Assembly (NCBI GenBank): GCA_023132135.1
Contig: JAGLYR010000149.1
Coordinates: forward strand, 1 to 6,798
Reading direction: 5' to 3'
DNA from: Candidatus Eiseniibacteriota bacterium
GTDB lineage: Bacteria; Arandabacterota; Arandabacteria; JAGLYR01
DNA: 6,798 nucleotides
The stretch's first letter is position 1. Each line of letters starts with the position of its first letter. The translations under genes were made by a program, and so were the position numbers. Positions 831-6,798 of this stretch are shown piece by piece. The notes under the pieces were generated by a model. That model saw only the letters and a list, made by a program, of their open reading frames with translations, was not told where the DNA came from and made no database searches.

Positions 831-2123
831 ATGGCTGTCCCTGTCCCAACGACCTCAACCGTCATAGAGAAGCAGAGTCTGTACGATAACGTCATCTGGC
901 AGTTCGACAGATCCGCGGATCTGATGGGTCTGGATCCGGAGATCCGCAAGATCATGGCGGCAACCACCAACGAGATCCAGGTCCATTTCCCGGCGCGGAT
1001 GGATGAAGGCAATATCGAGATCTTCACGGGCTACCGCGTCCAGCACAACAACGCGCTGGGCCCGTACAAGGGTGGGCTCCGTTTCCATCCGGCAGTGGAT
1101 ATAGATGAGGTTCGAGCTCTCGCCATGTGGATGACTCTCAAGTGCGCCGTCGTCGACATCCCCTTCGGCGGTGCGAAGGGCGGCATCCGGATGGACCCAT
1201 CCCGATATTCGGCGGATGAGATCCAGCGGATCGTGCGCCGTTTTACTTTCGCCCTGGGAGACACCATTGGTCCTGAGTTCGACATTCCAGCCCCGGACGT
1301 AAACACCAACTCCCAGACGATGGCATGGATCGCCGACACATACGCGTCGACGATGCCCCCTCACGAGCGGTCACGCTGCACCCACGTGGTCACCGGCAAG
1401 CCCATAGAATCCGGTGGCAGCCTGGGACGGGAAAAGGCAACCGGCCAGGGCGTGGCGTTCACTCTCAGGGAGTGGGCGAAAGACCATGAGGTCGATCTGC
1501 GCAGTGCGACCTTCATCGTCCAGGGGTATGGCAACGTTGGCTCCTGGGCTGCGAGGCTGATGAAACGCTTCGGATCGAAGTTGCTTGCCGTCGAGGATGT
1601 CACCGGGGCCATCACCGCCCCGGATGGGATTGATCCCGACAGTCTTGCGAAGTACGTCGTGGAACACGGCGGAGTGGCCGGCTATCCCGGGACCAAGGAA
1701 ATCGACCACACGACCTTCCTGCGGACCAAGGCGGACATCTTCATCCCGGCCGCCCTGGAAAACACCATCACAGGCGCCACCGCTCCGTTGCTGGATGTCA
1801 AGGTTGTTGCGGAGGGCGCAAACGGGCCCACGGATCCGGACGGAGATGCCATCCTCGCCAAGAGAGGGATTGATGTCATTCCCGACATTCTCTGCAACTC
1901 CGGTGGTGTGGTCGTGAGCTACTTCGAGTGGCTCCAGAATAAGCGGAGCGAGTACTGGGAGCTGGTGGAAGTGGATGGAAAGCTTCTCAGGATCATCGTG
2001 AACGCCTACAGGAAGGTCCGCGACACAGCGAAGAGGTACAGGACGGACTGGCGGACGGCCGCATTCATCTGCGCCCTCGGGCGCCTGGAAACCGTCTACA
2101 AGGAGCGCGGGGTTTTCCCCTAG
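831..2123 (+). CDS. gdhA: Glutamate dehydrogenase (Glu/Leu/Phe/Val dehydrogenase family)
   Basis: This cytoplasmic enzyme interconverts glutamate with 2-oxoglutarate and ammonia using NAD(P)(H), linking nitrogen assimilation to the TCA cycle. The 430 residues are the usual length for the hexameric bacterial and archaeal type. The substrate domain carries PYKGGLRF (K80), MTLKCA (K104) and PFGGAKGG with catalytic K116; D156 in IPAPD is the partner acid. The Rossmann domain has GYGNVG at 232-237. The second strand ends in E255-D256 where many relatives have Ser-Asp; the extra acidic residue may favour NAD(H) over NADP(H), a tentative reading. The C-terminal part has AALENTIT, AEGANGPT and the family hallmark GGVVVSYFEWLQN (359-371). 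The start is supported by GGAGG at 821-825, five bases ahead. It is the second gene of a likely operon with the Cys-rich gene. No key residue is missing, so an active enzyme is expected. A preference for leucine or valine is unlikely given the conserved substrate residues. Confidence 0.96.
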   Translation: MAVPVPTTSTVIEKQSLYDNVIWQFDRSADLMGLDPEIRKIMAATTNEIQVHFPARMDEGNIEIFTGYRVQHNNALGPYKGGLRFHPAVDIDEVRALAMWMTLKCAVVDIPFGGAKGGIRMDPSRYSADEIQRIVRRFTFALGDTIGPEFDIPAPDVNTNSQTMAWIADTYASTMPPHERSRCTHVVTGKPIESGGSLGREKATGQGVAFTLREWAKDHEVDLRSATFIVQGYGNVGSWAARLMKRFGSKLLAVEDVTGAITAPDGIDPDSLAKYVVEHGGVAGYPGTKEIDHTTFLRTKADIFIPAALENTITGATAPLLDVKVVAEGANGPTDPDGDAILAKRGIDVIPDILCNSGGVVVSYFEWLQNKRSEYWELVEVDGKLLRIIVNAYRKVRDTAKRYRTDWRTAAFICALGRLETVYKERGVFP

Positions 2124-2315: not shown

Positions 2316-4268
2316 TTACTTCCTCTTTCTCGCGGCCTTCTTCGCCTTCGCACTCGTGCAATTCAGAAGCCCGCCGGCGAGAAGAATCTCCTTCTGGCGG
2401 TCGGACAAGTCATAGTCCACTTCGAACTGGGTGCTCTTGGAATGATTCCGTACCAGGAATCTTTCGTTCCGCCCCAAGTGCCGGGGCACGTCCCGGATCT
2501 CGAGCCAGTCTTCCTGATCCAGTACATCATAGTCCCGCTCGTTGAGGAAGACCAACGGCAGGATGCCGCAGTTGATGAGGTCGGCCAGGTGCAGCGGGGT
2601 GAAGGACTTCGCCATCACGAACTGGATCCCCAGATACATCGGGGCCAACGCGGCATGCTCGCGGGACAATCCCAACCCGTAGTTGAACCCGCCGACGATG
2701 AATCCCCCACCGTGATCCCTGGCGCGGCGCGCGAAGGTCGGATCAACATTGCTGAAGACGTATTCCGAGATGGCGGGGATGTTGGACCGGAGAGGAATGA
2801 TACTGGCGGGGACCGGCATGATGTCGTCCGTAGTAGTATCGTCGCCTACCTTGAGAAGCACCTTGCTGGACAGGGTCTCCGGCAAGGTCTCCTTCCGCGG
2901 CAGCGGCTGGATATTTGGGCCCCGGCGGATTTTCACCTTGGAACCATCCCTCGGCGGCTTGATCACCATGTTGTCATCGACGACAAAGGTCTTGGGGATA
3001 GCAACCCGCGGAGGGCGGCCGGCAAGCGTTCTGGGATCGGTTATCCTGCCCTTGAGCGCTGTGGCAGCTGCCGTCTCGGGCGATACCAAGTAGATCGCGG
3101 CCGTCTTCGTCCCCGACCAGCCCTCGAAATTGCAGTTGCTGGTCCGGACCGAGACTTCGCCGCTGCCCGGCGCGTGGCCCATCCCGATACAAAATCCGCA
3201 GGCCGATTCTGCAATCCGGGCGCCCGAGGCAATCAGACTCGCCAAGCCGCCCGACTTGGCAATCATGCTGAAGACCTGCTTGCTCCCTGGAGCCACGATG
3301 AGGCTCACGCCCGGATGCACCGTCTTGCCCTTGAGAATCCCTGCAACCGTCATGAGATCCCGGTAGGACGAGTTGGTGCAACTGCCGACGCAGACCTGGC
3401 TGACCCCTACCTTCGTTAGCTTCCGGACGGGAACCACTCTGTCCGGCATATGGGGTTTGGCTGCGAGGGACTCGATCTTGTCCAGTTGGAGATCGATCAC
3501 CTCGTCGTACTCCGCATCCCTGTCGGCTACCAGCTCTTTCCAGAGCTTGACTCGCTTCTGCCCGGCCAGGAATGTGCGGGTCGCACGGTCGCTCGGGAAC
3601 ACGGAGGTCGTGGCGCCCAGCTCCGCTCCCATATTCGCAATGGTCGCCCGCTCGGGCACCGAGAGTGTTTGAACTCCGGGCCCACCGTACTCGAAGATCT
3701 TGCCAACCCCGCCCTCAACCGTGAGACGGCGCAGGAGATCCAGAATCACATCCTTGGCCGAAACCCAAGGTCTCAATTTTCCCGTCAGCCTAACCAGCAC
3801 AACCTGAGGCACGGTGAGATAGAAGAGCTCGCCCGCCATGGCCACAGCCACGTCAAGACCACTTGCCTCGATGCCGATCATCCCGATCCCGCCGGCTGTC
3901 GGGGTGTGATGGTCGGAACCCAGGAGGGTCATTCCGGGGATCCCAAAACGCTCCAGGTGAACCTGGTGGCAGATGCCGTTGCCCGGGCGCGAGAAACGGA
4001 CCCCGTACTTCGCAGCAACGGACTGCAGGAACAGGTGGTCATCAGGGTTCTCATACCCCGTCTGGAGGGTGTTGTGGTCCACGTAGCTCACGGAAATCTT
4101 CGTCTTCACTCTCGGGACCTTCATCGCCTCGAACTGAAGGTACGCCATCGTCCCGGTGGCATCCTGTGTCAACGTCTGGTCAATCCGGAGCCCGATCTCC
4201 CGCCCCGATCCCAGCTCACCCGAGACCAGATGCTCCGAGAGAATCTTCTGAACGATATTGTCCCCCAT
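2316..4268 (-). CDS. Aconitase-family [4Fe-4S] protein with altered active site
   Basis: This 650-residue protein aligns end to end with the Aquifex-type bacterial aconitase family, in which citrate and isocitrate are interconverted through cis-aconitate. Cluster ligands are intact: C297 (GSCTNS), C357 and C360 (CGFC). In mitochondrial aconitase numbering, Q72, D100, H101, H147, D165, H167, E262, R580, S643 and R644 have counterparts at Q35, D64, H65, H101, D119, H121, E193, R494, S535 and R536. Four other active-site positions are changed: S166 is H120, R447 is C379, R452 is W384, and the catalytic base S642 is L534. CGPC has become CGFC, and TTDHI is TTDDI. The frame is intact, and ATG 4268 has AGGAGG six bases ahead. 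The tail (641-650) is Lys/Arg-rich. It lies downstream of nifS-nifU-nifS, probably with its own promoter. The fold and cluster are secure; aconitase activity is doubtful. LeuC or homoaconitase is less likely because these are shorter or separate subunits and also keep those residues. Confidence 0.85.
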   Translation of the reverse strand: MGDNIVQKILSEHLVSGELGSGREIGLRIDQTLTQDATGTMAYLQFEAMKVPRVKTKISVSYVDHNTLQTGYENPDDHLFLQSVAAKYGVRFSRPGNGICHQVHLERFGIPGMTLLGSDHHTPTAGGIGMIGIEASGLDVAVAMAGELFYLTVPQVVLVRLTGKLRPWVSAKDVILDLLRRLTVEGGVGKIFEYGGPGVQTLSVPERATIANMGAELGATTSVFPSDRATRTFLAGQKRVKLWKELVADRDAEYDEVIDLQLDKIESLAAKPHMPDRVVPVRKLTKVGVSQVCVGSCTNSSYRDLMTVAGILKGKTVHPGVSLIVAPGSKQVFSMIAKSGGLASLIASGARIAESACGFCIGMGHAPGSGEVSVRTSNCNFEGWSGTKTAAIYLVSPETAAATALKGRITDPRTLAGRPPRVAIPKTFVVDDNMVIKPPRDGSKVKIRRGPNIQPLPRKETLPETLSSKVLLKVGDDTTTDDIMPVPASIIPLRSNIPAISEYVFSNVDPTFARRARDHGGGFIVGGFNYGLGLSREHAALAPMYLGIQFVMAKSFTPLHLADLINCGILPLVFLNERDYDVLDQEDWLEIRDVPRHLGRNERFLVRNHSKSTQFEVDYDLSDRQKEILLAGGLLNCTSAKAKKAARKRK

Positions 4269-4274
4269 GGGGTG

Positions 4275-4280
4275 CCTCCT
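4275..4280 (-). promoter_or_regulatory. Shine-Dalgarno site fixing the aconitase-family start
   Basis: On the minus strand AGGAGG lies six bases before the ATG at 4268-4266. It supports this start over the in-frame upstream ATG at 4316, whose extra 16 residues have no counterpart in the family. Confidence 0.8.
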
Positions 4281-4367
4281 GTGACCACGCGGAATGCTCA
4301 CACTCCACCACCGCACCGCGCCACATCAATATCCGCAAAAAACCACAAACATCGGCGCTCAGGGCGC

Positions 4368-4421: not shown

Positions 4422-5591
4422 TCACCGCAGATTGAGAGGCGAGACAGCTCTCAGACGAGCAACAATCGGCGGCAGAGTCTCGATCACTCTCCGGACATCC
4501 TCTTCTGTCGTCCCAAGACCCAGGGAGAACCGGATGGAAGAGCGAGCCAGTTCCGGGGACAATCCCAGAGCTAGGGTCACATGAGAAGGCCCGAGGCTTC
4601 CGGAACTGCAGGCCGAGCCAGTGGATACAGAGATCCCCTCGATGTCCAAGGCCAGCATGGTCGCCTCCCCCTCCACGCCCTCGATGCAGAAGTTCACGTT
4701 GTTGGGTAGACGGAGGGTCGGGTGACCGTTGAGGAACACGTGGTCATTGTTCTGTTCGATCCCCCGCCACAGGTCGTCCCTGAGACCGGTCAGTCGTCGG
4801 ATTTCCCCCTCCATTTCCCCAGCGGCCAGATCCAGGGCAGTGGCCAGACCAACGATGGCCGGCACATTCTCTGTGGAGGCCCGGCGCCCCATCTCCTGCC
4901 CCCCACCATGGAGGAAGCGCGTCAGTTTCGTCCCCTCGCGGATGTAGAGGACTCCGACGCCCTTCGGCCCGTAGAACTTGTGGGCCGAGAGAGAAAGGAG
5001 ATCCACGTTAAGATCGTCAACCCGGACGGCCATGTGACCTGCGGTCTGAACAGCATCGGTGTGGAAGGGAATCCCGCGCTCGCGGCAGATGGCTCCAATC
5101 TCGGAAATGGGCTGAATGGTCCCAACTTCGTTGTTCGCATGCATGACGGTCACCAGAACCGTCTCGTCGGTAATCGCACTGCGCACATCGTCAGGATCGA
5201 CCAGGCCCGAGCTGTCGACCGGCAGCTCGGTAACCCGGAATGCCTGTGTTTCCAGAAACTGGCATGTCTCCAGAACTGCCTCGTGTTCGATCCGGGTTGT
5301 GACGATGTGGTTTCCGTGTTCGGCCCAGGCGTAGGCCGTTCCCTCGATTGCGTAGTTGTCCGCCTCCGTTCCCCCGGAGGTAAACACGATTTCCTGGGGC
5401 CGGGCGCCGAGATGCCGGGCCACAGTTCCCCTGGCCGACTCGATGGCCTCGCTGGCATCCCGGCCATCCGAGTGGAAACTGGAGGGATTACCGAAAGCAG
5501 TGGTGAAGTATGGTCTCATTGCCTTCACCACTTCCGGCCGGGTGGGCGTCGTGGCGGCGTGGTCCAGGTAGATTCGCTTGTTGTCCGGCAT
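4422..5591 (-). CDS. nifS: Cysteine desulfurase, NifS/IscS family (class I), complete
   Basis: This PLP enzyme converts cysteine to alanine and carries the sulfur as a persulfide for Fe-S cluster assembly. The 389 residues match the family length. The start reads IYLDHAATTP (7-16). H103 in IEHEAV stacks on PLP, D179 in FHTDAVQ contacts the PLP nitrogen, and K205 in SAHK forms the Schiff base. GRRASTENV (235-243) follows. The catalytic cysteine is C328 in TGSACSSG, on the long mobile loop of class I enzymes, and R354 in SIRFSLG should bind the cysteine carboxylate. The gene starts 41 bases after the scaffold gene stop, so the two are very probably co-transcribed and the IscU domain is the expected sulfur acceptor. 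The start is chosen because family similarity begins at residue 7 and a GAGGT site lies upstream; the open frame to 6122 is antisense-like noise over the scaffold gene. All key residues are present. Confidence 0.95.
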   Translation of the reverse strand: MPDNKRIYLDHAATTPTRPEVVKAMRPYFTTAFGNPSSFHSDGRDASEAIESARGTVARHLGARPQEIVFTSGGTEADNYAIEGTAYAWAEHGNHIVTTRIEHEAVLETCQFLETQAFRVTELPVDSSGLVDPDDVRSAITDETVLVTVMHANNEVGTIQPISEIGAICRERGIPFHTDAVQTAGHMAVRVDDLNVDLLSLSAHKFYGPKGVGVLYIREGTKLTRFLHGGGQEMGRRASTENVPAIVGLATALDLAAGEMEGEIRRLTGLRDDLWRGIEQNNDHVFLNGHPTLRLPNNVNFCIEGVEGEATMLALDIEGISVSTGSACSSGSLGPSHVTLALGLSPELARSSIRFSLGLGTTEEDVRRVIETLPPIVARLRAVSPLNLR

Positions 5592-5632: not shown

Positions 5633-6226
5633 CTACCCCGTCACGGCAGCTCCGCAGCTCGGGCACTCCGCAGATTCGGCCCGCATGGGCTTGCCGCACT
5701 CCGGGCAGACCCTGAAGCTCTTGCCGCAAGGCGCGCAGGTGGCACCTTCCGGATCCACAGGGCTGTCGCAGTAGGGACAGGCGCAACCGGCCACGGGTTC
5801 GCGCACCTCCGCTTCTTCCCCCTCCGACTTCGAGAGCAGTGCGATGGGTTTGCCCTGCTTCTGGAGGTAGTCCGCTATAGCCTCGTGAAGAGCATCCGCT
5901 CCCAGGTTGGAGCAGTGCATCTTGTTCGTGGGCAGACCCCCAAGCTTCTTGGCGACGTCGCTCTTGGTAATCTTGAGCGCTTCGTCCAGCGTCCTGCCCA
6001 TGGCCATTTCGCTGACCATGCTGGAAACGGCGATTGCAGCCCCGCAGCCGAAGGTCTTGAACTTGACGTTGTCGATCTTCCCATCCTTCACCGTGATATG
6101 GAAAGTCATCATGTCTCCACACACGGGATTCCCCACCTCTCCGACGCCATCCGGGTGCTCAATCTCCCCGACGTTCCTGGGTTTTGTGAAGTGCTCCATG
6201 ACTTCCTTGCTGTACATCATGGCCAT
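5633..6226 (-). CDS. nifU: IscU/NifU Fe-S scaffold fused to a C-terminal double zinc ribbon
   Basis: The N-terminal part (about 1-126) is an IscU-type scaffold on which Fe-S clusters are built from desulfurase sulfur. C36 and D38 (VCGD), C61 (GCGAAIA) and C105 (KMHCSNLG) are the three cysteines and the aspartate that bind the nascent cluster. Classical IscU ends near residue 128. Here a charged linker (about 130-146) leads to a Cys-rich tail with four CxxC knuckles: C150/C153 with C164/C167, and C174/C177 with C188/C191, plus C148. The even spacing reads as two zinc ribbons. The tail is not the NifU central ferredoxin-like or C-terminal Nfu domain. The ATG at 6226 has GGAGG (6239-6235) eight bases ahead. 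The gene lies 17 bases after the stop of one desulfurase and 41 before the start of another. The scaffold role is secure; the zinc ribbons might contact client proteins, RNA or the desulfurases, which is inference. Confidence 0.93.
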   Translation of the reverse strand: MAMMYSKEVMEHFTKPRNVGEIEHPDGVGEVGNPVCGDMMTFHITVKDGKIDNVKFKTFGCGAAIAVSSMVSEMAMGRTLDEALKITKSDVAKKLGGLPTNKMHCSNLGADALHEAIADYLQKQGKPIALLSKSEGEEAEVREPVAGCACPYCDSPVDPEGATCAPCGKSFRVCPECGKPMRAESAECPSCGAAVTG

Positions 6227-6243: not shown

Positions 6244-6798
6244 TCAGTTCTTGTCCCTTTGCTCCTTCGAGCGATAGACCGGAGACATCTCCCGCAACCT
6301 CTGGATTACTCTAGTCATCACATCCATCACATAGGAAACTTCGTCCAGGGAATTGTCCTGACCCAGGCTGTACACGATGGATCCCTGGGCCAGTGCCGTG
6401 TCCAGTCCCAGAGCCAGAAGAACGTGGGAAGCCTTGAGGGCCCTGGACGTGCATGCCGAACCGCTGGATCCAAAGATCCCCTCCTGGGCCATCAGGAGAA
6501 GCATCGCCTCGCCCTCCACGCCCTCCACACAGATGCTGACATGGTCGGGCAACCGCTTCTCCGGATGTCCGGTAAGGACAACCTCGTCGATATCTGTGGT
6601 CAGCCGGCGGATGAGCTCATCCCGGACCAGGATCAGGTGATCCCGCCTCCGGTCCAGGGATTCCGCCGCCAGCTGCGCCGCTTTCCCCATTCCAGCGATC
6701 CCGGGAACATTCTCCGTTCCGGCCCGCCGGCCCGCTTCCTGGATGCCTCCATCCACCAGAGGCATGATCCGGGTTCCCTTTCTCAACCAGAGCGCCCC
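6244..6798 (-). CDS. Cysteine desulfurase, NifS family, C-terminal part (cut by window edge)
   Basis: Only the last 184 residues are in the window; the N-terminal half with the PLP lysine lies beyond 6798. The visible part begins GALWLRKGTRI, the strand after the PLP lysine region, and continues with GGIQEAGRRAGTENVPGI, VEGVEGEAML and the catalytic-loop motif SSGSACTSRALKASHV, whose Cys is visible residue 116. The usual SIRFSLG motif reads SIVYSLG: visible residue 142 is Val (GTG, 6373-6375) where the family has the Arg that holds the cysteine carboxylate. After SACTS it has RALKAS, where the complete paralogue downstream has GSLGPS. The TTG at 6786 is an internal Leu codon, not the start. 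The stop lies 17 bases before the nifU start, so this is the upstream gene of the same operon. Family membership is clear; activity on cysteine is uncertain. Confidence 0.92.
   Translation of the reverse strand, partial: GALWLRKGTRIMPLVDGGIQEAGRRAGTENVPGIAGMGKAAQLAAESLDRRRDHLILVRDELIRRLTTDIDEVVLTGHPEKRLPDHVSICVEGVEGEAMLLLMAQEGIFGSSGSACTSRALKASHVLLALGLDTALAQGSIVYSLGQDNSLDEVSYVMDVMTRVIQRLREMSPVYRSKEQRDKN

Follow-up and report, generated by a model that had tools for sequence, protein, structure and literature searches.

A long aconitase homologue that keeps its Fe-S cluster cysteines and has lost the general base and three substrate-contact residues

The window analyzed here, a stretch of 6798 bases from a Candidatus Eiseniibacteriota bacterium, spans an entire contig (C56) and carries on its minus strand, at positions 2316–4268, an aconitase-family gene for a protein of 650 aa. 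The protein keeps the three cysteines of the Fe-S cluster and 13 other active-site residues, whereas the general base and three further residues that contact the substrate in mitochondrial aconitase are replaced. Aconitase function has probably been lost, as judged by the loss of these four residues and by a genome in which neither citrate synthase nor a second gene of the Iso_dh family was found. The reading that we tentatively favor, at close to an even chance, is a functional descendant of the long aconitases that may now act as an Fe-S protein without citrate chemistry. The active-site residues of aconitase rank among the most conserved in metabolism; if true, this reading would show the fate of an aconitase once the citrate constraint is lifted, in a genome that seems to have exchanged the citrate synthase route for another, and could reveal a noncatalytic Fe-S role in bacteria. 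The altered long aconitase is known from one genome, a single metagenome-assembled genome (MAG) lineage.

The identity of the gene was established from its intact reading frame, profile matches, and alignments. The frame opens with an ATG at position 4268 and closes with a stop codon at 2316–2318, giving 650 codons free of stops and frameshifts. The sequence CACAGGAGGCACCCC (4269–4284, minus strand) precedes the start codon and places AGGAGG, a good ribosome-binding site, directly 5' of the ATG. A promoter-like match upstream of the gene was at chance level and was discarded, and a search against Rfam gave no match. Among the NCBIfam profiles, the protein matches over its full length the Aquifex-type aconitate hydratase model NF005558/PRK07229 (909 bits against a cut-off of 612) and the aconitate hydratase model TIGR01342 (851 bits against 719), and it stays below every cut-off of the models for LeuC, homoaconitase, AcnA, AcnB, and mitochondrial aconitase. 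Homology to aconitase is certain. Assignment to the large subunit of LeuC or homoaconitase was rejected on scores (TIGR01343, 324 against 386 bits; TIGR02086, 315 against 410; TIGR00170, 168 against 560), and also because domain 4 is fused rather than supplied as a separate small subunit. Aconitase X was likewise rejected, with no AcnX match in Pfam or NCBIfam and with the serine base lost. The AlphaFold2 model, built on an alignment of six rows, is poor: the mean pLDDT is 64, and several active-site segments fall below 50.

Residues are numbered by means of a phmmer alignment to pig aconitase (5acn), in which chain index and customary numbering coincide. The four replacements that had been claimed in a sequence-only reading of this DNA are borne out: S166 corresponds to H120, R447 to C379, R452 to W384, and S642 to L534, and Ser, Arg, Arg, and Ser occupy these columns in 54/54 other family members, none of which carries any of the four replacements. 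Equally well founded were its lists of retained residues, namely the cluster cysteines C358 (C297), C421 (C357), and C424 (C360) and the counterparts of Q72 (Q35), D100 (D64), H101 (H65), H147 (H101), D165 (D119), H167 (H121), E262 (E216), R580 (R494), S643 (S535), and R644 (R536). To these, the alignment adds N258 (N212), N446 (N378), and D568 (D481). Phe359, put forward as unusual in the same reading, is not informative, since Phe occurs there in 4/54 relatives.

The replacements lie in four segments of the minus strand, recognized by translation and family alignment. The segment GSDHHTP (3885–3920) carries S166H; SNCNFEGW (3114–3147) replaces xNRNFxGR, with TGC for R447C and TGG for R452W; and YGLGLSREH (2658–2694) replaces YGQGSSREH through S642L and Q532L, both encoded by TTG, the column of Q532L being nearly as strict as the invariant ones. 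The fourth segment, SFTPLHLADLIN (2568–2606), replaces SFARIHxANLIN and adds R558P—mitochondrial R666, here P558—together with I559L and N563D. These three changes, along with G134E and G136S, affect invariant columns and were absent from the earlier list. That list had been accompanied by the statement that NRNFxGR is kept even in LeuC and homoaconitase, which holds in part: the motif is strictly kept in a LeuC-type protein encoded on contig C19 of the same genome, but reads NRNFxGK in an aconitase-family group represented on contig C20 and in its relatives, so that R452 is not universal in the superfamily.

The 54 members used for comparison are roughly 48% to 67% identical and stem from many families of bacteria and archaea. 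The protein is changed at 9 of their 93 invariant columns; leaving out each of the 54 in turn gives a mean of 0.56 changed columns and a maximum of 4, and the excess is not chance. Of 20 classical active-site residues, 16 fall in invariant columns, and 4 of these 16 are changed compared with 5 of the other 77, an enrichment that is only just significant (Fisher p 0.044). Measured against the consensus of 35 closer members, the identity is 71.1%, which lies within the 68.5 to 80.5% spanned by canonical members and makes decay of the whole protein unlikely. The general constraints of the family are thus kept and specific ones lost.

Mitochondrial aconitase uses S642 as its general base; C358, C421, and C424 hold the cluster, which serves as a Lewis acid and whose fourth iron interacts with D165, H167, and H147 (PMC8184944). 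The same serine acts as the base across the whole superfamily; its counterpart is kept even in aconitase X, the most distant branch, in which the S70A mutant is almost inactive (PMC8184944). In AtAcnX, Ser293 binds a carboxyl group and follows directly after Glu292, the counterpart of D165 (PMC8184944), and because Glu292 is equated with D165, Ser293 would occupy the S166 position. Exchange of one substrate arginine in yeast Aco1p, R604K, leaves 0.4% of the activity with aconitate (PMC3556520). Features present in even the most divergent relatives known to be active are therefore missing from this protein, although its cluster ligands and the greater part of its second shell are retained. On the catalytic features tested, its membership in the functional class of aconitases fails.

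Compared with the Aquifex-type aconitate hydratases, the protein features the same domain order, the three Fe-S cysteines, the second-shell residues, and R580, S643, and R644, and it differs by the replacement of S166, R447, R452, S642, and R666, with substitutions found in none of the 54 members checked. The match to mitochondrial aconitase (5acn, 7acn) covers residues 18–637 with a phmmer E-value of 1e-82, the identical positions including the cysteines and the 13 active-site residues, but the score is far below the cut-off of TIGR01340. Aconitase X, which acts on cis-3-hydroxyproline or mevalonate 5-phosphate, shows that the substrate site of an aconitase fold can be rebuilt (PMC8184944); it differs in that it has other cluster ligands and keeps the serine base and presumably the serine of the S166 position, whereas the present protein retains the cluster ligands and has neither serine. 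Most active-site residues of aconitase persist even in homoaconitase and isopropylmalate isomerase (PMC8184944). Another point of comparison is AcoB of Aspergillus, an aconitase paralogue inactive on any substrate tested and without a growth phenotype upon deletion (PMC3556520); AcoB, however, keeps virtually all catalytic residues except for one Arg-to-Lys change, in contrast to the five radical replacements seen here.

No close relative with the same residues was found. The best match reached at most 58% identity in a scan of genome contigs and at most 59% among plasmid records; two scans of viral contigs gave no match, and across 386 whole genomes the identity did not exceed 67%, the matches that were read having canonical residues. 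The clade with His, Cys, Trp, and Leu at the four sites that the sequence-only reading had suggested looking for did not emerge: the protein stands alone on a long branch, whose end branch of 0.59 to 0.64 is the longest among the closer relatives. It falls outside the strongly supported clade formed by the aconitases of its phylum. A tree forced to join the two is not rejected (p-AU 0.418), so that both vertical descent and transfer are possible. As a separate observation, a sister clade in the same aconitase family (L040:5001-6908, L041:5001-6932, L033, L036) features Ser in place of the first Fe-S cysteine, C358, together with a GC[LN]GC motif and Pro at N446, and keeps R447, R452, and S642; L029 shares GCLGC and Pro with this clade but keeps the first cysteine.

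The genes upstream on the same strand belong to Fe-S cluster assembly. A NifS cysteine desulfurase (4422–5591, minus strand; TIGR03402 above its cut-off) is separated from the aconitase-like gene by 153 bp, and it is preceded by a NifU-type Fe-S scaffold (5633–6226, minus strand) with a C-terminal double zinc ribbon of CxxC pairs and by the C-terminal part of a second cysteine desulfurase (6244–6786, minus strand) that runs off the contig edge. The fusion of a NifU N-terminal domain with a double zinc ribbon thus sits between two NifS-type genes. Given the 153-base gap, cotranscription of the aconitase-like gene with the NifS and NifU genes is possible. The relatives' canonical aconitases whose surroundings were read have no NifS or NifU beside them, and the neighborhood does no more than hint at a role connected with Fe-S clusters.

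The context was compared across eight genomes of the phylum, the window genome and seven relatives. Contigs below 3 kb of the window genome read as N (3/20 contigs sampled); this fraction, which by a rough estimate amounts to about 4% of the genome in addition to 3.6% incompleteness, could contain a gene for citrate synthase, isocitrate dehydrogenase, or a canonical aconitase. A long aconitase with normal residues occurs in six of the seven relatives; none was found in the seventh. A citrate synthase match is present in all seven, full length in six and as a contig-edge piece in one, whereas no citrate synthase was found in the window genome outside the masked contigs, only a citryl-CoA lyase of 258 aa. 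Matches of the Iso_dh family number two in six relatives, some of them partial, and one fragment in the seventh, compared with one in the window genome. The second dehydrogenase of the relatives scores best as NADP-dependent isocitrate dehydrogenase, yet under the model cut-off. In the relatives that were read, citrate synthase, aconitase, and the second dehydrogenase are encoded at a distance from one another or on separate contigs, so that their joint absence is not the loss of one missing segment.

Two further loci of the window genome encode aconitase-related pairs. On contig C19, an operon (L043:7187-12875) comprises the beta and alpha subunits of a succinyl-CoA-ligase-like enzyme that read as citryl-CoA-ligase-like, the citryl-CoA lyase (above its NCBIfam cut-off), an HD-domain protein, and a LeuC/LeuD-type pair with canonical residues; no citryl-CoA lyase was found in the other seven phylum genomes. 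A second, canonical aconitase in the same genome, as sought in the sequence-only reading, is therefore present only in the form of this pair, no other long aconitase being found on contigs of at least 3 kb. On contig C20, a divergent LeuC/LeuD-type pair (L044:1333-3147), changed at the H101, H147, and R452 positions, lies beside the single Iso_dh gene of the genome and is the ortholog of a fused protein of about 610 aa in the relatives. This group, which includes the fused L051:8582-10414 and L053:1037-2845, adjoins a homoisocitrate/isocitrate-dehydrogenase-like gene and features Cys at H101, IGSHV or IGTHI in the H147 region, and the motif GSSRQ in addition to NRNFxGK.

The simplest inference from this arrangement is that the C19 operon deals with citrate, be it in synthesis or in cleavage, and that the old aconitase was set free. 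The lineage would have swapped citrate synthase for a citryl-CoA ligase/lyase module with its own LeuC/LeuD-type pair. The freed protein would have stayed under selection, binding a [4Fe-4S] or [3Fe-4S] cluster without hydro-lyase chemistry, and its candidate roles include an iron or oxygen sensor, a binding protein, and a cluster reservoir. Having lost positive charges and gained the bulkier side chains of His, Trp, and Leu, the pocket would exclude tricarboxylates. The sequence-only reading had left the choice between a hydro-lyase for another substrate and a nonenzymatic Fe-S protein; its shared premise, the loss of aconitase function, is well supported, and the second alternative is favored by the loss of the base common to the whole superfamily. 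Against an Fe-S protein without chemistry counts the retention of the catalysis-tuning second shell (D100, H101, H147, D165, H167, N258, and E262) and of R580, S643, and R644, which would be unexpected in a purely structural or sensor protein.

A doubtful extension of the Fe-S reading is that the cluster iron that is normally open gains a fourth ligand, either C379, which stands in for R447, or H120, which stands in for S166. If true, a catalytic, substrate-binding [4Fe-4S] cluster would have become a closed redox, sensing, or donor cluster, and an aconitase-fold hydro-lyase would have turned into an electron-transfer or sensor protein by exchanging a substrate Arg for Cys. A second job of an aconitase is exemplified by IRP1, which binds RNA with the cluster as a switch; IRP1, unlike the protein described here, keeps its catalytic residues. 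No iron-responsive element was found here with Rfam. AcnA is a further case of a moonlighting aconitase (PMC3912134).

The same retained residues, together with the three cysteines, speak for an Fe-S hydro-lyase acting on a different, smaller or less charged hydroxy acid, the main rival reading, which we regard as less likely but give real weight. R580, S643, and R644 would hold one carboxylate, the cluster iron would take the hydroxyl, and H120 or another residue would act as base. The superfamily offers precedents for such a change in aconitase X (PMC8184944) and in Aco2p, which gained the use of homoaconitate through one Arg-to-Lys change (PMC3556520). The base serine that even aconitase X keeps is missing, however, and no adjoining catabolic or biosynthetic gene hints at a substrate, the neighbors being NifS, NifU, and a divergent glutamate dehydrogenase.

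Early nonadaptive decay after loss of the role, which would make the changes functionally meaningless, is improbable. Loss of citrate synthase and of the second Iso_dh gene would remove selection, and the long end branch fits; an open frame of 650 codons behind a good ribosome-binding site, conservation within the canonical range, and changes concentrated at catalytic columns instead of spread over the protein do not. Still less credible is an aconitase activity that persists through compensating changes: the profile scores are well above the aconitate hydratase cut-offs and no other long aconitase was found on contigs of at least 3 kb, but the protein has neither the general base nor either arginine of NRNFxGR, the yeast R604K exchange alone nearly abolishes activity with aconitate, and the canonical LeuC/LeuD-type pair of the citryl-CoA operon can stand in. 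With an 'aconitate hydratase' call at such a score, the gene illustrates that automated annotation can mislead on function.

The source genome is a single MAG of 3.4 Mb in 345 contigs, 96.4% complete and 0.42% contaminated. The contig has a GC content of 0.607 and a tetranucleotide correlation of 0.941 with the remainder of the genome, which ranks it among the upper half of the genome's own pieces (0.84–0.97) and above other organisms (0.23–0.80), which places it in its genome; misassembly or misbinning is unlikely. An assembly, sequencing, or binning artefact is the least probable explanation of all, for although the window is a whole 6.8-kb contig of one MAG whose glutamate dehydrogenase and NifS resemble genes of other phyla more than those of its own, its composition fits and nine invariant-column changes, multi-base changes and transversions among them, leave the frame intact. 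The sequence-only reading was thus justified in setting a sequencing artefact aside, S166H requiring two base changes and the R666 change a transversion.

The resemblance of glutamate dehydrogenase and NifS to genes of other phyla suggests some transfer. The glutamate dehydrogenase (831–2123, plus strand) is divergent and below all NCBIfam cut-offs; none of the seven phylum relatives yields a match to it at E 1e-60, and it is 70% and 61% identical to proteins of two unrelated genomes (G065 and G042), so that its transfer is likely. Positions 448–786 of the plus strand encode a small cysteine-rich protein (112 aa) that contains two motifs of the CxxC type; it matches no family with confidence and a zinc-ribbon model weakly, below the cut-off.
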